Assembly: GCA_016870395.1 (NCBI GenBank)
Contig: VGBT01000020.1
Span: 1 to 45,193, forward strand
Length of the DNA stretch: 45,193 nt
Direction: 5' to 3'
DNA from: Actinomycetota bacterium
GTDB lineage: Bacteria; Actinomycetota; Acidimicrobiia; IMCC26256; JAENVU01
Shown here: positions 909 through 11,029 of the stretch, piece after piece
Position numbering within the stretch: position 1 is the stretch's first letter
How the letters are laid out: each line of letters opens with the position of its first letter
The notes under the pieces: generated by a model
Seen by the model: the letters and a program-made list of their open reading frames with translations, nothing else
What the model was told of the DNA's origin: nothing
Database searches by the model: none
Position numbers and translations under genes: made by a program

Positions 909-1259
909 TCAGCGCGAGGCGCTACGGGCGCGGGCGCGGGCGTCGCGCTCGAACGAGATCGCAGCGTACGCCTGCTGGTGGGGCATGCCCGCGGCCCGGT
1001 GCCGCACGTACTCGCCGAGGTAGCGCGCGAGGAACGCGGCGCGGTGCTCGCGCCATTGCTGCACGTGCACGAGCTCGTGGGCGAGGAGCAGCTCGTCGTG
1101 CTCGTGCCCGCGACGGACCAGGACGAGCCGCCCGACGGTCATGGCCGCGACCCCGGGCACGAGCCACGGCACGACGACAACCCGAACCCGCACCCGATCG
1201 GTCATCGGGACGTGCCGGTACGCGCGCACGGCTTCGGGCGACAGCCGGTGCGCCCGCAC
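909..1259 (-). CDS. Small HExxH (gluzincin-like) protein coupled to leuS
   Basis: A 116-residue protein starting at GTG 1259, whose first base is the last base of the leuS TAG stop (TAGTG). A later ATG at 1205 would give 98 residues. The centre carries ELLLAHELVHVQQWREH, an HExxH zinc-protease-like motif followed by residues common in the DUF4157/M48-like superfamily. The C-terminus holds a tyrosine-rich stretch (RYLGEYVRH). It is far too short for a full metallopeptidase and no third zinc ligand is certain, so catalysis is unproven. Transcription with leuS seems likely from the overlap. It is not a recognised named gene. Confidence 0.6.
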   Translation of the reverse strand: MRAHRLSPEAVRAYRHVPMTDRVRVRVVVVPWLVPGVAAMTVGRLVLVRRGHEHDELLLAHELVHVQQWREHRAAFLARYLGEYVRHRAAGMPHQQAYAAISFERDARARARSASR

Positions 1260-4240
1260 TAGCCGACGACGAAGTTGACCAGCCGCGCGGGCACCACCAC
1301 GACCTTGCGGACGGTACGACCCGCGAGCATCGCGGCGATCGCGGGGTCGGCTCGCGCGACCGCCTCGGTGGTGTCGGCGTCGGCATCGGAGGGCACGGTG
1401 ACCCGGTGACGGACCTTGCCGTTCTCCTGCACCGGGACCTCGACGGTCTCCACCGCGAGCCACGCGGGATCCGCGACCGGGAAGGCGTCGTGGGCGAGCG
1501 ACGTCGCATGGCCCATCCGCTCCCACAGCTCCTCGGCGACGTGCGGCGCAAGCGGCGCGACCATCAGCACCAGGGCTGTCGCGACGTCGTCGGGCGCCGC
1601 TCCCCGATCGGCCACCACCTGCGTGAGGCGGTTGTTGAGGGTGATGAGCTTGGCGATCGCGGTGTTGAAGCCCAGGTCCGCCATGTCGCCGCGCACACCG
1701 GCGATCGTGCGGTGCAGCAGCCGGCGGGTCTCGTCGTCGGCCGGCTCGGTGGTCAGGCGCGCGAGTCCCGTGCCCTCGTCGACCAGGTTGCGCCACAGCC
1801 GTTGGAGGAAGCGGTGCACCCCGACGATGTCGCGCGTGCTCCAGGGCCGGGAGGCGTCGAGCGGGCCCGTGGACATCTCGTAGAGGCGCAACGTGTCGGC
1901 CCCGTACTCGCGGTACATCTCGTCGGGGGTGACGACGTTGCGCAGGCTCTTGCCCATCTTCCTGTACTCGCGGTCGACCGGCTGGTCGCCCAGGAAGTAC
2001 CGGCCGTCGCGCTCGACGACGTCGCTCGCCTCGACGTAGGCGCCGCGCGCGTCGGTGTACGCGTGGGCCTGGATGTAGCCCTGGTTGAAGAGGCGCTGGA
2101 ACGGCTCCGAGGTGGAGACGTGGCCGAGGTCGAAGAGCACCTTGTGCCAGAACCGCGCGTAGAGCAGGTGCAGCACCGCGTGCTCGACCCCACCCACGTA
2201 CAGGTCGACGCCTCCTACATGGTCGCGCTCGCTGCCCGCCGGGATACCCGGCGGGCGGTCGTTCGCCGCTCCGTCTGCGGCGTCGCGGGCACCAGCCATC
2301 CAATAGCGCTCGGCACTTGGAGACACGAACGCGGTCTCGTTGGTCGGGTCGAGGTAGCGCAGGTAGTACCAACAGGATCCGGCCCACTGCGGCATGGTGT
2401 TGAGCTCACGCCCATAGGTCTTCGGGCCGTCGCCGAGGTCGAGCTCCACCATGACCCACCGCTCGGCGCGTGCAAGCGGCGGCGCGGGGACGCTCTCGAC
2501 GTCGTCGGCCACGATCTCGGGCTCGAAGTCGGTGATCTCGGGGAGCTCGACGGGCAGCATCGCGTCGGGCAGGGCGACCGGCAGGTCGTGCTCGTCGTAG
2601 ACGATGGGGAACGGCTCGCCCCAGTACCGCTGGCGGCTGAAGAGCCAGTCACGCAGCTTGTAGGTGACCGTGGGGAGACCCAGGCCCTCCGCCTCCAGCC
2701 ATCCGTTGATCGCCTGCTTCGCCGCCTCGACGTGGAGGCCGTCGAGCGAGACGCCGTCGTTGGTCGAGTGCACGCCGACCCCGTCGCCGGTGAACGCCTC
2801 CGGCCACTCCCCCGCCGGCGTCCCGGCACCGACGCCGCGCTCGGACAGCCAGGTGTCGGAAGGCTGGACGACGCAGCGGATCGGGAGCGAGAACTCCTGT
2901 GCGAACTCGAAGTCGCGCTGGTCGTGCGCGGGTACGGCCATGATGGCCCCGGTGCCGTACCCCATCAGCACATAGTCGGCGACGAACACGGGCACGGGAG
3001 CACCGTTCACGGGGTTGGTCGCGAACGCGCCGGTGAACACGCCGGTCTTCACCCTCCCCTCGGCCTGGCGTTCGAGCTCGCTCTTCTGTGCGGCGAACTC
3101 CCGATAGCGCCGGATCGCCTCGGGCGGACCGACATCGGTGCCGAAGATGCCGCGCCAGTCGGCCGGGACGTCGTTGAGCTCCTCGCCGATCATGGCGTCG
3201 GGCCACTCGTTGGGGACGATCACGTCGAGCAACGGGTGCTCGGGCGCGAGCACCATGTAGGTCGCGCCGAAGAGGGTGTCGGGACGCGTCGTGAAGACGG
3301 TGATCACGGCGTCCTCGTGACCGGCGACGGGGAAGTCGACCTCGGCACCCTCGCTGCGCCCGATCCAGTTCCGCTGCATGAGCTTGATCGAGTCGGACCA
3401 GTCGAGCGCATCGAGGTCTGCGAGCAGCCGCTCCGCGTACGCGGTGATCCGCAGCATCCACTGCTTCAAGGGACGCCGGTAGACGGGATGGTTGCCCCGC
3501 TCGCTGCGGCCGTCGGCGGTGACCTCCTCGTTGGCCAGCACCGTGCCGAGCGCCGGACACCAGTTGACCTGGGCCTCGTCGAGATACGCGAGGCGGTACC
3601 CGTCGACGAGCTCACGGCGCTCGAGCTCGGTGAGCTCGGACCAGCCGACCTCGGGGTCGGCCTCGAGCAGTGGGATCAGCTCGTCGATCGGACGGGCCCG
3701 GTCGGCGTCGGCGTCGTAGAAGGCGTTGAAGATCTGCAGGAAGATCCACTGCGTCCAGCGGTAGTACGCGACGTCGGTGGTCGCGATGCTGCGGCGGGGA
3801 TCGTGGCCGAGCCCGAGCGCGCGCAGCTGACGGCGCATGTTGGCGATGTTCGCCTCGGTGGTGACACGCGGGTGCTGGCCGGTCTGCACCGCGTACTGCT
3901 CGGCCGGGAGCCCGAACGCGTCGTAGCCCATCGCGTGCAGCACGTTGTACCCGGTCATCCGCTTGAAGCGGGCGTACACGTCGGTGCCGATGTAGCCGAG
4001 CGGGTGACCGACGTGGAGCCCCGCGCCACTGGGGTACGGGAACATGTCGAGCACGAAGAGCTTGTCGCGCTCTGCAAACGCGGCGAAGCCCTCGGAGAGC
4101 GGGCCCGACGGGTTGGGCGCCCAGAAGGTGCGCCGCTCCTCCCAGCGGTCCTGCCACTTCGCCTCGATCTCGGTCGCGAGGCGTGCGTCGTAGCGGTGGC
4201 GCGGGGTGTCGTCAGCGGTCGGTGCGGCGGCGTCGCTCAT
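1259..4240 (-). CDS. leuS: Leucine--tRNA ligase
   Basis: A cytosolic class I aminoacyl-tRNA synthetase charging tRNA-Leu, 993 residues. The HIGH signature appears as [13 protein letters not shown] near residue 75. The KMSKS loop is KMGKS near 763, a variant I know from other actinobacterial LeuS. The CP1 editing region lies between them with [12 protein letters not shown], and an anticodon-binding C-terminal region ends in RLVNFVVG. The length is slightly above the usual 850-970, partly through a Gly/Asp-rich insertion just before [10 protein letters not shown]. It begins at ATG 4240 and is followed by the coupled HExxH gene and then comEA/comEC, an order I know from related actinobacteria. 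Confidence 0.97.
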
Positions 4241-5155: not shown

Positions 5156-6751
5156 GTGGCCGAAGGCGCAGACGAGGGCAGGCAGACCGCGCGACGCCTG
5201 ATCCCTCCGGCCCTGGCAGTGACCGCGCTGTCGCTCGTCCTCTACGGCTGGCCGGCCCCTCGCCTCTCGGAGGAGCTCTACCTCCCTCTGGTCAAGCGCG
5301 CCGGCGACCCTGATTACCTCCGCGGCGACTGGACCTTCTCCGGCGCCTTCCCGGAGCACTGGGTCTTCAACCACCTGCTCGCGCCGCTCGGGCGCGCACT
5401 GCCGATCGAGGTGCTCGGCTGGGTCGGCCGGTTGGCGACCTGGCCGCTGCTCGCGTACTTGCTGGTCGGACTGGTCGGTCGGCTCCGGATCCGCCCGTGG
5501 GCCGCTGCCGGCGCGGTGATGCTCTGGCTCGTCGCCAATCAGGCCGTGTTGGGCGGCGAGTGGATCCTCGGAACGTTCGAGGCCAAGACGGTCGCCTACT
5601 GCTTCCTGCTCGGGGCGCTCCACGCATCGCTGTCAGGCCGGGTCCCGCTGGCCCTGGTGCTGCTCGGCACGACCCTCGCCTTGCATCCCGCCGTCGGGCT
5701 CTGGGGCGCGTGGGCCGGCAGCATCGCGCTGCTGGCCCTTCCCGAGACCCGCCGCGCGACACTCCGGTGGTGCTGGCTCGGACTGTGCTTCGCCGCTCCG
5801 GGACTGGTGGAGGGCTTCGCCGCGATCGGCCCGGCCACCGACGCGTTGCGTCAGTTCGTCGTCCTCGTCGCGATCCCCTACCACACTGACCCGTTCTTCG
5901 GGGGCACGACTGCGGGCGGGTGGCAGGCCGGGCTTCGGATCGGACTGCTGCTCGCGATGTTCGCTGCCAACCTGTGGGCGTTCCGCCGGTCGAGCCGCGA
6001 CCTCGCCCAGCGATACCTGGCCGCGTTCCAGATCGCCGCCGCGGTTCCGTTCGCGCTCGGCATCGTCGCTCGGGTCCTCGGGCTCTGGTCGTTCCTCCAG
6101 CTGATGCCGTTCCGGTCGTTCCCGCTCTTCGTCCCGCTCGTGTTCTTCGCCCAGGTCGTCCGGCTCGCAAGCGAGTCCTGGCACACCGGTCCCGCGCCCG
6201 GGACCAGCCGCCGTGCCAGACGCCGCGCCGAGAGGAGCGGGCGCCGGCGCGCGGTCGGCCTCGTCTCGGGCGCGGCGTTCATCGCGCTCCTCGGCACCGC
6301 GCCGCTACTCGCAGCACCGCGCATGGCGGCCCGCAACCTCGCGGCCTGGACGGGACGCGACGACGAGGGCGCGGCGTTCGAATGGATTCGTGAGAACACG
6401 ACGCCGTCGACACGCTGCATCGTTTCCGTCGACCGGCAGGACGCGTTCTCTCGCACCCAGCGCCCCCTCGTCGCGAACTGGCAGGCCATCCGCTACGACG
6501 ATCTCGCGGCGTGGAAGCGGAGGGTCGTCGATCTCGTGGGCAGTCCCGCGACCTTCGACGGACCCGGCTGGACCGGCGACCTCGAGCACCTACGAGACGC
6601 GTACGCCGGGCTCGACGCGACGCAGGTCGAGCGGATCGCTCGCCGTTACGACGCCACGTGCCTCGTCAGCACCACCCACTATCCGTTCCCGGTGCGCCAC
6701 CGCGAGGGCGACGTACGCATCTATCGGATCGACAAGGGCGGGCGTCCATAG
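5156..6751 (+). CDS. GT-C-like polytopic membrane protein
   Basis: A 531-residue integral membrane protein with roughly ten hydrophobic segments between 15 and 400 and a soluble C-terminal domain. The GTG start at 5156 is set by GGAGGG five bases upstream. The first large loop carries DPDYLRGDW (51-59), an acidic pattern like that in the first external loop of GT-C glycosyltransferases. The C-terminal domain opens with FEWIRENTTPSTR (near 408), a motif common after the membrane part of PMT/STT3-like proteins. It likely transfers sugars from lipid-linked donors outside the membrane, but substrate and catalysis are unproven. The downstream HisH/HisF-like pair suggests a role in a modified surface glycan. 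Confidence 0.6.
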   Translation: MAEGADEGRQTARRLIPPALAVTALSLVLYGWPAPRLSEELYLPLVKRAGDPDYLRGDWTFSGAFPEHWVFNHLLAPLGRALPIEVLGWVGRLATWPLLAYLLVGLVGRLRIRPWAAAGAVMLWLVANQAVLGGEWILGTFEAKTVAYCFLLGALHASLSGRVPLALVLLGTTLALHPAVGLWGAWAGSIALLALPETRRATLRWCWLGLCFAAPGLVEGFAAIGPATDALRQFVVLVAIPYHTDPFFGGTTAGGWQAGLRIGLLLAMFAANLWAFRRSSRDLAQRYLAAFQIAAAVPFALGIVARVLGLWSFLQLMPFRSFPLFVPLVFFAQVVRLASESWHTGPAPGTSRRARRRAERSGRRRAVGLVSGAAFIALLGTAPLLAAPRMAARNLAAWTGRDDEGAAFEWIRENTTPSTRCIVSVDRQDAFSRTQRPLVANWQAIRYDDLAAWKRRVVDLVGSPATFDGPGWTGDLEHLRDAYAGLDATQVERIARRYDATCLVSTTHYPFPVRHREGDVRIYRIDKGGRP

Positions 6752-6793
6752 ACTGAGCGGCCTCGACCGCGCACGAGGTGCCAACGCTTACCG

Positions 6794-6838
6794 ATGTTCG
6801 ACCCTGCCAACCCCTACGTCCGGGCCGCTCGGCAATGA
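6794..6838 (+). other. Possible 14-codon upstream peptide overlapping hisH-like start
   Basis: ATG 6794 opens a short frame reading MFDPANPYVRAARQ and ending in TGA at 6836-6838, which overlaps the ATG of the hisH-like gene as ATGA. Such an overlap could couple translation of the pair. Its ribosome-binding site (ACGAGG) is 13 or more bases away, so initiation would be weak. It may equally be chance. Confidence 0.2.
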
Positions 6839-7449
6839 TCGGTGTCGTCGACTACCGCGCGGGCAACGCTCCGAGCGTCATGTACGCGCTCGACCGGCTC
6901 GGTCTCGAAGCTCGGCTCGTCGCCGGTGCGCAGGACGTGCGCGCGGTCGACCGGCTCATCCTTCCCGGAGTCGGCGCCGCGCGGGCCACGATCGACTCGC
7001 TCGCGGCTTCGGGCCTCGTCGACGCCCTGACTCACCAGGCGCTGGTCGAGCGGGTCCCGTTCCTGGGCATCTGCATCGGCCTCCAGGTCCTGTTCGAACG
7101 CAGCGAGGAGGGTCCGACCAAGTGTCTGGGCTGGCTGCCGGGCGAGGTGCTCCGCTTCCCATCGACCGGCCGCGTCCCCCAGATCGGCTGGAACGGCGTG
7201 CGGTTCGACCGACCGCACCCGCTGGTGGCCGCGCTCCCCGACCCGTCGTACTGCTACTTCGTGAACTCGTATCACGCGATCCCGGCCGACCCGGCGGTCG
7301 TGCTCGGCCGCGCGGACTACAGCGTCGAGTTCACCGCGATGGTGGCGCACGGCAACATCGCGGCCACCCAGTTCCACGCGGAGAAGAGCGGTGAGCTCGG
7401 GCTCCGGATCCTCTCGGCCTTCGCGACCTGGGACGGCGCGCCGTGCTGA
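6835..7449 (+). CDS. HisH-like glutamine amidotransferase (imidazole glycerol phosphate synthase subunit paralogue)
   Basis: A class I glutaminase of 204 residues with a full triad: Cys80 in FLGICIGLQ, His181 and Glu183 in QFHAEK. The family supplies ammonia from glutamine to HisF for imidazole glycerol phosphate formation. The usual PHMGWN motif reads PQIGWN (115-120), a His-to-Gln change near the HisF interface. A GTG at 6778 would add 19 residues without family support, so ATG 6835 is preferred. It overlaps the HisF-like gene by 7 bases and is not near other histidine genes. It could be the host's histidine enzyme or, more likely, part of a surface-sugar amidination route such as HisH2/HisF2. 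Confidence 0.8.
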   Translation: MIGVVDYRAGNAPSVMYALDRLGLEARLVAGAQDVRAVDRLILPGVGAARATIDSLAASGLVDALTHQALVERVPFLGICIGLQVLFERSEEGPTKCLGWLPGEVLRFPSTGRVPQIGWNGVRFDRPHPLVAALPDPSYCYFVNSYHAIPADPAVVLGRADYSVEFTAMVAHGNIAATQFHAEKSGELGLRILSAFATWDGAPC

Positions 7450-8243
7450 CCCGGCGTCTGATCGCGTGCTTCGACGTCGTCGAGGGTCGGGTCACGAAAG
7501 CCCAGCAGTTCCAAGACAACATCGACGTCGCACCGGCCGCCGACCTGGCCCGACAGCTCTACGCGGACCAGATCGACGAGATCGTCTTCTACGACATCAT
7601 GGCCAGCGCCCAGAAGCGGCCCATCGACCTGGCGACCGTGCGCGACGTCGGCCAACACGTCTTCGTCCCCTTCACGGTCGGAGGGGGAATCCGCTCCGTC
7701 GACGACATGTTCGACGTGCTCAAGGCCGGGGCCGAGAAGATCAGCATCGACTCCATGGCCGTGCGCAACCCCCAGATCGTGCGCGACGGCGCCGAGGCAT
7801 TCGGCAGCCAGTGCGTGGTGCTGTCCACACAGGTGAAGCACGTCGGTGTCCGCGACGGCATCCCCAGCGGGTATGAGATCTTCATCGACGGCGCCCGCCA
7901 GGCCACCGGCCTCGACGCCGTCGACTGGGTGCGGCGCGGCGAGGACCTAGGCGCCGGAGAGATCGTGGTCAACAGCATCGACCGCGACGGCACCGCCTCT
8001 GGGTACGACCTGACGATCACGCAGGCGGTCGCCGACGCCGTGAACGTCCCAGTCATCGCGTCCGGGGGCGCCGGCACGGTCGACCACATCGCCGCGGGAC
8101 TCACCGACGGCGGTGCCTCGGCCGCGATCGTCTCCTCGATCCTCTACTCACCGCGCTTCGAACGGAACCTCGGGGTGCGCGAGCTCAAGGCAGCCCTGCT
8201 CGCGCTCGGGGTGCCGATGCGCCCCTGGGTCGAGGGCGGGTAG
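7443..8243 (+). CDS. HisF-like cyclase paralogue with Asp130 replaced by Gln
   Basis: A 266-residue TIM barrel clearly of the HisF family. Asp11 (IACFDVVEGRVTK), Lys19, the phosphate-binding FTVGGGIRS and ASGGAGT, and the SIDRDGT strand are all present. By alignment from memory to the Thermotoga HisF sequence, the second acid/base residue, Asp130 of VVVAIDAKRV, falls on Gln130 here (VVLSTQVKHV). The loop after it is longer (VGVRDGIPSGYEIFIDGA). Loss of a catalytic Asp argues against ordinary histidine synthesis and for a changed reaction or substrate. The gene overlaps the HisH-like gene, so the two very likely form a complex. The stop lies 22 bp from the convergent rsfS gene. Confidence 0.8.
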   Translation: MLTRRLIACFDVVEGRVTKAQQFQDNIDVAPAADLARQLYADQIDEIVFYDIMASAQKRPIDLATVRDVGQHVFVPFTVGGGIRSVDDMFDVLKAGAEKISIDSMAVRNPQIVRDGAEAFGSQCVVLSTQVKHVGVRDGIPSGYEIFIDGARQATGLDAVDWVRRGEDLGAGEIVVNSIDRDGTASGYDLTITQAVADAVNVPVIASGGAGTVDHIAAGLTDGGASAAIVSSILYSPRFERNLGVRELKAALLALGVPMRPWVEGG

Positions 8244-8639: not shown

Positions 8640-9932
8640 CTATCCCGTTGCTGCGATCGCGGGGCAGTCTGCACCCACGATGACCGTGACGTCGACCACC
8701 CCGATAGCGGTCGTGGCCTTCTTCAGCACCCCACAGCCCAGCGCGTCCAGGAGCCGCTGCGCGTCGGCACGTTGTGCGTCGCGGTAGTACACGACCTGCG
8801 TGGTCGCCACACCGAACCCGGGGACGTTGCCGGTGAGCGTGACCTCGCCACCCGCCGGGACGACCTTGGCCGCCGCACCCTGTGCCACCCCGACCGCACC
8901 CGTTCCGTTCAGGATCTCGACTCGGGGCCGCTCGCCCGCTGGTGCGAGCAGGGCGTTCGCAAACGCACCGTTCACGTAGCGGGCGAGCGCGTCGCGACGT
9001 ACCTCGAAACGCTCACCGCCCCCCGTAGCGATGGACTCGACCGGCAACGTGTCGGTCCGGTGGGGCGCGCTCGCACCCGCGTCGACCAGGACGCCGAGCT
9101 CAGGACGTTTCGCCACCGTCGCCGCGGCCGCCCGTTCGTCACCCAGGCGAGCCATCCACGCGTCGAGCACGTCCTGCACGGTCACCAACCGGTCGAGCTC
9201 ACTGCCGGGCTGTGTCGCGGTGAGCACGCGCGCCGCAGTCGCCGCGTCGAGCTCCTGGGTTCCGCTCGGCACCGTGACCTCGTCGTCGAGACGCACTGAC
9301 CGCTGCATCTCGACCGTGAGCGGCTCGGCCGGCGCCAGAGCGGCTACGAGGTCGGCGTCGTCGACGACGAGCGTGGTACCGATCCTGACTCCGAGCATGT
9401 TCTCGACCGTGGTCCGGAGCAGGTCGTCGTCGCCCTGGGCCGGCAGGTCGGCCAGGGTCTGCACGCCGAGCGACGGAACCTCCACCTGGGTCGCCGCCGG
9501 CAACAGCAAGACCGAGGCGTCCTCGCCTCCGGTCCCGACCACCACGAGCAGGTCGGCGCGACCGGACGCGTCAGTGTGCGTGAGCAGCAGCGTGTCCGCG
9601 GGGACGTCGGCACTCGGCGGCGCGGTGGTGTCCTTACCGCCGTCGCTGTCGTCGGCTCGCACCAGCATGCCGACACCGACCGCCGCCGCGAGCGCGAGCG
9701 CGATCCCGGGCATCACCACCAGCCAGAACCGGCGCCGTTGGGCCCGCAGGCGGCGCTCCCGGCGCCTCGAGCGCTGGCCGGCTGGCGCGGCCGCGTCGAG
9801 TTCGCCAGGACGGGACGCCCGTGTTCGGCGCGAGCGCCCGGCCCGCCGGTAACGGGACCGCTCCTCCCGCCTCTCCCGGCGGCTGGGGCGCGGCGGCTCG
9901 TCCACGACTGTGCCGCCTGCGCGCTGCGCCAT
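8640..9932 (-). CDS. Membrane-anchored LCP-like protein with LytR C-terminal domain
   Basis: A 430-residue protein with a long Arg-rich cytoplasmic tail (17-68) and one membrane helix at about 69-91. The external domain resembles a diverged LytR-CpsA-Psr fold (TLLLTHTDASGRADLLVVV, LLRTTVENMLGVRI, GSELDRLVTVQDVLDAWMA). A typical LytR_C domain follows at about 330-415 (RVEILNGTGAVGVAQGAA). LCP enzymes attach polymers to peptidoglycan, but the usual arginine cluster is not evident here, so activity is uncertain. The start ATG 9932 overlaps the nadD stop as TGATG with no ribosome site of its own, implying coupling. The gene is followed at once by rsfS. Confidence 0.75.
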   Translation of the reverse strand: MAQRAGGTVVDEPPRPSRRERREERSRYRRAGRSRRTRASRPGELDAAAPAGQRSRRRERRLRAQRRRFWLVVMPGIALALAAAVGVGMLVRADDSDGGKDTTAPPSADVPADTLLLTHTDASGRADLLVVVGTGGEDASVLLLPAATQVEVPSLGVQTLADLPAQGDDDLLRTTVENMLGVRIGTTLVVDDADLVAALAPAEPLTVEMQRSVRLDDEVTVPSGTQELDAATAARVLTATQPGSELDRLVTVQDVLDAWMARLGDERAAAATVAKRPELGVLVDAGASAPHRTDTLPVESIATGGGERFEVRRDALARYVNGAFANALLAPAGERPRVEILNGTGAVGVAQGAAAKVVPAGGEVTLTGNVPGFGVATTQVVYYRDAQRADAQRLLDALGCGVLKKATTAIGVVDVTVIVGADCPAIAATG

Positions 9933-10510
9933 CAGGAGGAAGTGTAGAGGCCCCGATCCTTGATGAAGCGCACTACCGCCGGCGGCACGAGGCCGTCGAC
10001 CGGGCGCCCGGCGGCGATCCGGGCTCGCAGCTCCGACGACGAGATGTCGAGGCGCGGCACGGCGACGTGCCGCCACCGCCAGTTCGGGCCGGGCGGGTCG
10101 GCGTGCTCGCCGGCGCGCTCCATGACCACCACCGTGGCCAACGGCCGGGTGTCCTCGAGGCGACGCCAGGTCCCCATGTTGGCCGCGGCATCGGCACCGA
10201 GCACCAGGAACAGCTCCCGGTCCGTCCCGCCCAGGGCCTCCAGGGTGTCGGCGGTGACCGACGGCCCCACACGCTCGATCTCCACCGTCGAGCACTCCAC
10301 GCCGTCGACGCCCTCGCAGGCGCGCGTCACCATCTCCGCGCGCAGCGCTGCGGAGGCGACGACCGTTCCGCGCTTCTGCCACGGATCTCCGGCGGGAACG
10401 AGCAGCACTCGATCGAGGCCGACGACCGCGCGTACCTCTGCCGCGGCGGCAACGTGGCCGGCGTGCACCGGGTCGAAGGTGCCCCCGAGAATCCCCAGCC
10501 GCTCGACCAC
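9932..10510 (-). CDS. nadD: Nicotinate-nucleotide adenylyltransferase
   Basis: It adenylates nicotinate mononucleotide from ATP in NAD synthesis. The 192 residues begin ERLGILGGTFDPVHAGHVAA, holding the GGTFDP and HxGH motifs of the nucleotidyltransferase superfamily, and end with ISSSELRARIAAGRPVDGLV, the ISSTxIR motif, followed by a normal C-terminus. The GTG start at 10510 has no close alternative. It heads the nadD-lytR-rsfS cluster, an order common in actinobacteria, and is divergent from the LivG relic. Confidence 0.96.
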   Translation of the reverse strand: MVERLGILGGTFDPVHAGHVAAAAEVRAVVGLDRVLLVPAGDPWQKRGTVVASAALRAEMVTRACEGVDGVECSTVEIERVGPSVTADTLEALGGTDRELFLVLGADAAANMGTWRRLEDTRPLATVVVMERAGEHADPPGPNWRWRHVAVPRLDISSSELRARIAAGRPVDGLVPPAVVRFIKDRGLYTSS

Positions 10511-10621: not shown

Positions 10622-11029
10622 GTGCCACTGCTGTCGGTGGAGGACATCGAGGTCGAGTTCGGGCGAATCCGCGCGCTCGACGACCTCGCGTTCGACGTCA
10701 ACACCGGACAGTTCTGCGCGCGCATCGGCCCGAACAGCGCCGGGAAGACCACGCTCTTCAACTGCGTGAGCAGCGTGTACACGACCCGCCGCGGTTCCAT
10801 TCGATTCGACGGACGCGAACTGCTCTTGATGGCCCCGCACCGCGTCGCGCGCGCCGGTATCGCCCGAACGTTCCAGAACCTGGCGCTCTTCCGCGCCCTT
10901 GCCGTGCGTGCGCGGGAGCTGCTGTGCCGCCTGTCACTCGACCAGGTCGTCGTGCTCGACTTCGGCCGCAAGACCGCGGAGGGCACACCGAAGCACGTCA
11001 GTGCCGACCCGAGAGCGATCAACGGTTGA
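10622..11029 (+). pseudogene. Internally deleted LivG-type ABC ATPase relic
   Basis: A 135-residue frame whose N-terminus is a good branched-chain amino acid-type ABC ATPase: LLSVEDIEVEFGRIRALDD, Walker A GPNSAGKTT (37-45), and the Q-loop region GIARTFQNLALF (79-90). Around residue 100 it jumps to the extreme C-terminus of the family (VVVLDFGRKTAEGTPKHVSA). About 110 residues are missing, including the signature LSGGQ, Walker B and H-loop, so ATP hydrolysis is impossible. The deletion kept the frame open. A strong ribosome site (AGGGGG) remains before the GTG start. No transporter partners are nearby. It is best read as a pseudogene from a single deletion. Confidence 0.75.

Follow-up and report, generated by a model that had tools for sequence, protein, structure and literature searches.

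The hisH-hisF pair of the window

The stretch analysed here (the window) comprises the 45,193 nucleotides of contig VGBT01000020.1 from assembly GCA_016870395.1, an actinobacterial genome of the class Acidimicrobiia (order IMCC26256), and the elements of interest are two adjacent genes coding for homologs of HisH and HisF, the glutaminase and cyclase subunits of imidazole glycerol phosphate (IGP) synthase. HisF is a model enzyme for the study of TIM (triosephosphate isomerase)-barrel catalysis, allostery and ammonia channelling, with Asp11 and Asp130 as its textbook catalytic pair. Three consecutive genes on the forward strand code for a GT-C-like membrane protein, HisH and HisF (Table 1), with the last two overlapping by 7 nucleotides; the start codon of hisH lies inside a larger open reading frame (ORF) that opens at 6778. 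The HisH protein was recovered by the HisH equivalog model TIGR01855 with 194 bits against a cut-off of 105, and it retains Cys80, His181 and Glu183, in agreement with an earlier note on this DNA that had reported an intact Cys-His-Glu triad. The HisF protein matched the family profile PF00977 with 215 bits, and reached 271 bits with the HisF model TIGR00735, which is below its cut-off of 294.55. Just one of five relatives tested passed this threshold (299.6), and most members of the group delineated below fall under it, unlike canonical HisF.

Alignment of the window HisF with the Thermotoga maritima enzyme (1thf) is free of gaps through residue 134 and places a glutamine exactly at the position of Asp130, whereas Asp11 and Lys19 are both retained; the loop after strand β5 is lengthened by about 6 additional residues following Gln130 (beyond residue 134 the window numbering is that of T. 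maritima plus 6). This bears out what the earlier note had read from the sequence; it had however missed two further changes, namely Asn103 to Asp and Thr171 to Asn (window Asn177). Additional differences from canonical HisF include a Glu for Asp98, an Ala for Gly20 and an Asp at the position of Tyr143. In contrast, Phe23, the phosphate loops, the gate residues Arg5, Glu46, Lys99 and Glu173 (T. maritima Glu167) and the pairing with a hisH gene are shared with the canonical enzyme. The fold is likewise shared: the AlphaFold model of the window HisF (predicted local distance difference test score 93.5) is a HisF barrel whose best Foldseek matches are HisF structures, with TM scores of about 0.85-0.89 for canonical structures such as T. 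maritima 1thf, 1gpw and 7ac8. In the predicted structure, position 103 lies at the end of β4 and position 130 in β5, which are adjacent strands of the barrel. An error of sequencing or annotation at Gln130 could be ruled out, as this residue is invariant in 86 orthologs and relatives.

Table 1. Coordinates of the genes and codons discussed in the text (window numbering)
Feature	Position	Strand	Remarks
hisH, glutaminase subunit	6835..7449	+	ATG start at 6835; matches TIGR01855
hisF (Gln130 type), cyclase subunit	7443..8243	+	GTG start; 266 aa
hisH Cys80 codon	7072-7074	+	Catalytic; triad kept
hisF Asp11 codon	7473..7475	+	First catalytic aspartate, retained
hisF Glu98 codon	7734..7736	+	Natural counterpart of fD98E, an activating substitution in T. 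maritima; Glu in 90/90 Q-type and allied sequences
hisF Asp103 codon	7749..7751	+	Asn103 in canonical HisF; end of strand β4; proposed replacement carboxylate
hisF Gln130 codon	7830..7832	+	Position of catalytic Asp130; strand β5
hisF Asp149 codon	7887..7889	+	T. maritima Tyr143; Asp invariant in and specific to the clade, just past the second strand of the β5 hairpin
hisF Asn177 codon	7971..7973	+	T. maritima Thr171; clade-specific; strand β6
GT-C-like multi-pass membrane protein	5156..6751	+	531 aa; incidental neighbor outside the conserved unit
leuS	1259..4240	-	Conserved chromosomal neighborhood, not part of the enzyme
nadD	9932..10510	-	Conserved chromosomal neighborhood, not part of the enzyme

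A distinct clade with reciprocal changes at positions 103 and 130

In a maximum-likelihood tree the window protein and its relatives formed a single well-supported clade (100/99), apart from both canonical HisF and a HisF2-like group, and we refer to its members as Q-type HisF. The glutamine that the earlier note had suggested should be sought in close relatives is present in each of the 27 genomes coding for a Q-type HisF in the order and in 59 of 59 distant relatives, which also uniformly possess Asp103, Asp149, Asn177, Asp11 and Lys19. Gln130 and Asp103 occur together in all 89 ordinary members examined. A comparison of 136 HisF sequences revealed exactly one aspartate at positions 103 and 130 in every case: 89 combine Asp103 with Gln130, one combines Asp103 with Arg130, and the remaining 46 have Asn, Gly or Ser at 103 with Asp130. 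Glu98 and Ala20 are further features of the clade, its gate residues are invariant and the triad of the associated HisH is essentially so. In total, over 80 positions do not vary within the clade, among them Asp11, Lys19 and those of the phosphate loops, and identities amount to 75-85% between the 11 family groups in which it occurs in the order and to 61-70% between phyla.

The one outlier at position 130 (genome G372; L214:5572-6345) resembles the other members in its Asp11, Asp103, Glu98 and Asp149 and in being paired with an adjacent HisH, but differs from them in having Arg at 130 and Thr at 177. The nearest sister of the clade (99/99) is the HisF of a metagenome-assembled genome (MAG) of Planctomycetaceae (L195/L219), which shares the VTK, NID, SGYE and VVNS motifs with Q-type HisF, but still has Asn103 and Asp130 and lacks an adjoining HisH. 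Given that this nearest relative keeps the canonical residues at both positions, the changes of Asn103 to Asp and of Asp130 to Gln probably arose on the branch leading to the Q-type clade.

Other HisF-like partners of HisH-like glutaminases are known from the AglZ/HisF2 family of acetamidino-sugar synthesis (NF038364) and from WbuZ of glycosyl amidation (TIGR03572). The window HisF scored 185 bits with the former (cut-off 310) and 223 bits with the latter (cut-off 299.7), and both these scores and the tree rule out membership in either family, in keeping with the separate HisF branch that the earlier note had envisaged. A PseA/WbpG-type amidotransferase was not seen among the annotated neighbors, no genome-wide search aimed at it having been made. 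Some genomes of the order contain HisF2-like proteins (group C; L045, L046, L062 and L064-L070), which form a clade of their own and are the mirror image of Q-type HisF, in that Asp130 is kept and Asp11 is replaced by Leu; the four of these that were scanned fell somewhat short of the cut-offs for WbuZ and AglZ. Our literature search, for which subscription papers were mostly out of reach, found no description of a natural HisF without Asp130.

Mutual exclusion with canonical HisF in the order

In the genome from which the window derives (2.98 Mb, 98.9% complete) the HisA/HisF family is represented by two proteins, HisA and the window HisF. The former lies beside hisC and hisB on another contig (C67), which bears a contiguous hisD-C-B-A and hisI without hisH or hisF, and the window pair is thus located outside the his operon, as the earlier note had stated. 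Searches with PF00977, TIGR00735 and the clade alignment detected no second canonical hisF in this genome, and its only HisH above the cut-off is the window copy. Among 61 genomes of the order (the window genome and its relatives), we found Q-type HisF in 27 and a canonical HisF above the cut-off beside HisA in 21, and none with both (hypergeometric P = 8e-8, uncorrected for kinship). The genes hisA, hisB and hisI are retained in the Q-type genomes of the order. A third kind of HisF in the order, in the form of HisF2-like extra copies, is found in two of the Q-type genomes. The single-contig 2.46 Mb genome of the isolate IMCC26256 (G021; CP011489.1) likewise has the Q-type protein only, along with an intact hisD-C-B-A lacking H and F, indicating that gaps in the assemblies do not account for the pattern. 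A Bacillus subtilis genome used as a control gave no match with the hisF, hisB, hisI and hisH models at the thresholds used, meaning that either the method may miss genes or that genome copy lacks them; the conclusion of a sole HisF hence rests on the overall pattern and on this one single-contig chromosome. Within the class, Q-type HisF is limited to this order (27 of 296 genomes). Two contigs titled as a Bifidobacterium breve MAG (L103 and L104) carry Acidimicrobiia-type loci matching those of two other genomes (G002 C17 and G051 C123), and their titles look wrong.

The neighborhood of the pair in the order typically includes leuS upstream and nadD, a gene for an ACT-domain protein, a VWA gene, moxR and proA/proB downstream. 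The GT-C-like gene does not belong to this conserved setting: its product has DUF6798 (PF20604; residues 403-459) as the sole known domain in Pfam, and of 26 other loci L054 alone has a relative at the same place (47% identity). We therefore rejected a conserved linkage of this gene with the pair, which the earlier note had proposed to check, and regard it as an incidental neighbor. A 135-aa ORF further along the window (10622-11029) aligns with LivG-type ABC transporter ATPases over no more than their first ~95 residues and represents a truncated or broken gene.

Phyletic distribution and operonic context of Q-type HisF

A search of named genomes recovered relatives with 61-70% identity from Clostridiales, Oscillospiraceae, Lachnospiraceae, Coriobacteriia, Treponema and other spirochaetes, a planctomycete and the cyanobacterium Plectonema radiosum. 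Within the order to which [Clostridium] polysaccharolyticum belongs the type is rare, being found with scores above 460 bits in 5 of 148 sampled genomes, in addition to the Arg130 outlier at 371. At seven Clostridia-type loci (L127, L129, L131, L138, L148, L151 and L156; L138 and L217 are one contig) the Q-type pair is placed within a his operon just as canonical HisF is, with the gene order hisD-C-B-A-H-F-I or, in L156, hisH-F followed by G-D-C-B-A. Of the 32 genomes that were reached through these relatives, 20 have the Q-type protein as their sole HisF and 12 have another HisF too. Almost all Q-type genomes possess hisB (58/59) and hisI (56/59). In one genome (G431) the canonical hisF of the his operon matches in two frames (L216:4345-5113) and is apparently frameshifted, which could be a sequencing error, with an intact Q-type pair being found elsewhere (L215).

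Of the 52 Q-type loci outside his operons and outside the window's order, 22 have one or more genes of nitrogen metabolism or for glutamine amidotransferases at a distance of up to 4 kb. The panel scored (gltB/gltD, glutamine synthetase III, guaA, carB, pyrG, glmS, asnA, gatAB and murT-gatD) was drawn from the same loci and lacks a random background, so that this count describes rather than proves an enrichment. Examples include a run of glutamine amidotransferase genes, carB-guaA-pyrG-hisH-hisF-murT-gatD (L225:4587-14001), and the cluster gltB-gltD-hisH-hisF-glmS (L222). No such neighbors were found in 40 loci from the window's order, and the annotated neighbors of Q-type loci included no glycan cluster.

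In seven genomes with another HisF (G302, G303, G306, G315, G319, G322 and G323) the Q-type HisH is the only HisH found. In four of these (G303, G315, G323 and G319; L189, L192, L193 and L194, respectively) there are his operons with a canonical hisF and no hisH, and the sole HisH pairs with the Q-type HisF. The orphan HisF of the seven genomes would either use free ammonia or borrow the Q-type HisH. The his operon of [Clostridium] polysaccharolyticum (G320) contains a divergent HisA-like protein (L232:8074-8808) and a 432-aa protein (L232:6822-8117) that consists of a degenerate HisA/HisF-like barrel in its N-terminal half (with IIPFIN in place of IIPCLD of HisF) fused to HisI/HisE. Short HisA/HisF matches were also found in ORFs of similar length carrying HisI in G321, G322 and G326.

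Predicted function and alternative explanations

On the basis of these sequence and contextual observations, we consider it likely that the window pair is a functional glutamine-dependent IGP synthase, belonging to a distinct and widespread clade that has replaced canonical HisF in its lineage. The sequences directly show that the clade exists, which residues are fixed in it, that it provides the sole HisF of many genomes and that it occurs in his operons, and IGP synthesis is by far the likeliest job of the Q-type pair in the cell, in light of the his-operon loci, its being the sole HisF in 20 of 32 genomes, the retention of hisB and hisI, and the apparently frameshifted canonical hisF of G431. 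As one defining residue, Asp130, is absent, we class the protein as a variant that probably works like HisF rather than as an ordinary member. Several points weigh against this interpretation. Asp130 has been reported to be essential in T. maritima HisF (PMC5919458), and the G20A substitution, which is natural in Q-type HisF, drops the kcat of the T. maritima enzyme by ~100-fold (PMC11350729). Furthermore, 12 of the 32 sampled genomes contain another HisF above the TIGR00735 cut-off, and the Q-type protein could have a different or additional role in them; most of the genomes are also drafts, in which a single absence proves little.

The earlier note had proposed that the pair acts on another substrate, perhaps a surface-glycan precursor such as an amidino- or amino-sugar nucleotide, with histidine being made otherwise or not at all. 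It had added that this idea would be undermined if an Asp were to align at position 130, or if the genome were to lack any other hisH or hisF and the pair complemented histidine auxotrophy: no Asp aligns there, but the genome does lack any other hisH or hisF, which is the genomic half of the latter. The score below the HisF cut-off, the remodelled active site, the presence of an additional HisF in 12 of the 32 genomes and the GT-C-like gene adjoining the pair in the window could all be accommodated by such an activity. However, the Q-type protein is the sole HisF in nearly all of the 27 genomes of the order as well as in 20 of 32 others, hisA, hisB and hisI persist in the window genome, and elsewhere the pair sits within his operons. 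These observations, along with scores far below those of the sugar-amidating families, the inconstant GT-C neighbor and the want of a glycan cluster among annotated neighbors, render a different substrate very unlikely. A decaying or inactive HisF, keeping only the role of activating the glutaminase, would account for the loss of a residue reported as essential (PMC5919458), but is scarcely credible in view of the more than 80 invariant positions, the high identities across family groups and phyla, and its occurrence as the sole copy in genomes that hold the rest of the pathway.

A further alternative is that the pair does make IGP, but that its distinguishing job is bifunctional or specialised and tied to nitrogen status, such as the supply of 5-aminoimidazole-4-carboxamide ribonucleotide (AICAR) or histidine when glutamine is plentiful, with the orphan canonical HisF of some Clostridia running on free ammonia. 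The nitrogen-related neighbors at loci such as L225 and L222, the seven genomes in which an additional HisF has only the Q-type HisH available, and the ability of HisF to use ammonium without HisH (PMC5919458) are consistent with this scenario. Glu98 also corresponds to fD98E of T. maritima, a mutation that drives the complex toward its active state and increases the turnover of the glutaminase (PMC8115485). Against it stand the 40 loci of the window's order devoid of such neighbors and the purely descriptive nature of the count of 22 in 52, and we accordingly deem a specialised role of this kind unlikely.

For an IGP synthase of the Q-type we envisage that HisH would hydrolyse glutamine, that the ammonia would cross the conserved barrel gate to HisF, and that the latter would close the imidazole ring of N'-[(5'-phosphoribulosyl)formimino]-AICAR (PrFAR) to yield IGP and AICAR. 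In T. maritima HisF, Asp11 serves as the general acid and Asp130 as the general base (PMC11350729; PMC5919458). In Q-type HisF the task of the latter residue on β5 would have moved to Asp103 on the neighboring β4, with Gln130 and Asn177 as matching changes. That Asp103 supplies the lost carboxylate is a prediction from the sequences and the structural model, made with lower confidence than that of the overall function, and Asp149 is a second candidate. Because the clade carries Glu98 and Ala20 on top of the changes at 103 and 130, the active site and the allosteric interface look to have been remodelled as a whole. We give even chances to the more specific proposition that this is a second natural catalytic arrangement of IGP synthase, in which the base has moved from Asp130 to Asp103 in company with Gln130 and Asn177, with Glu98 by default, and which would have replaced the canonical enzyme in part of Acidimicrobiia, some Clostridia, spirochaetes and others.

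Implications

Annotation tools such as GapMind define hisF by TIGR00735 (PMC7311316). Since neither the window protein nor most of its relatives reach the cut-off of this model, annotation based on it may miss Q-type HisF and thereby report false gaps in histidine synthesis. The fixed Glu98 and Ala20 match substitutions that have been studied in T. maritima HisF, which makes mechanism and allostery directly testable in this clade, and Asp103 is singled out as the residue of interest for the mechanism. The textbook active site of HisF thus probably has a second natural version and, if this is true, a clade spanning multiple phyla that lacks Asp130, and that in many genomes appears to supply the sole enzyme of this kind, would mean that this active site can be rewired.

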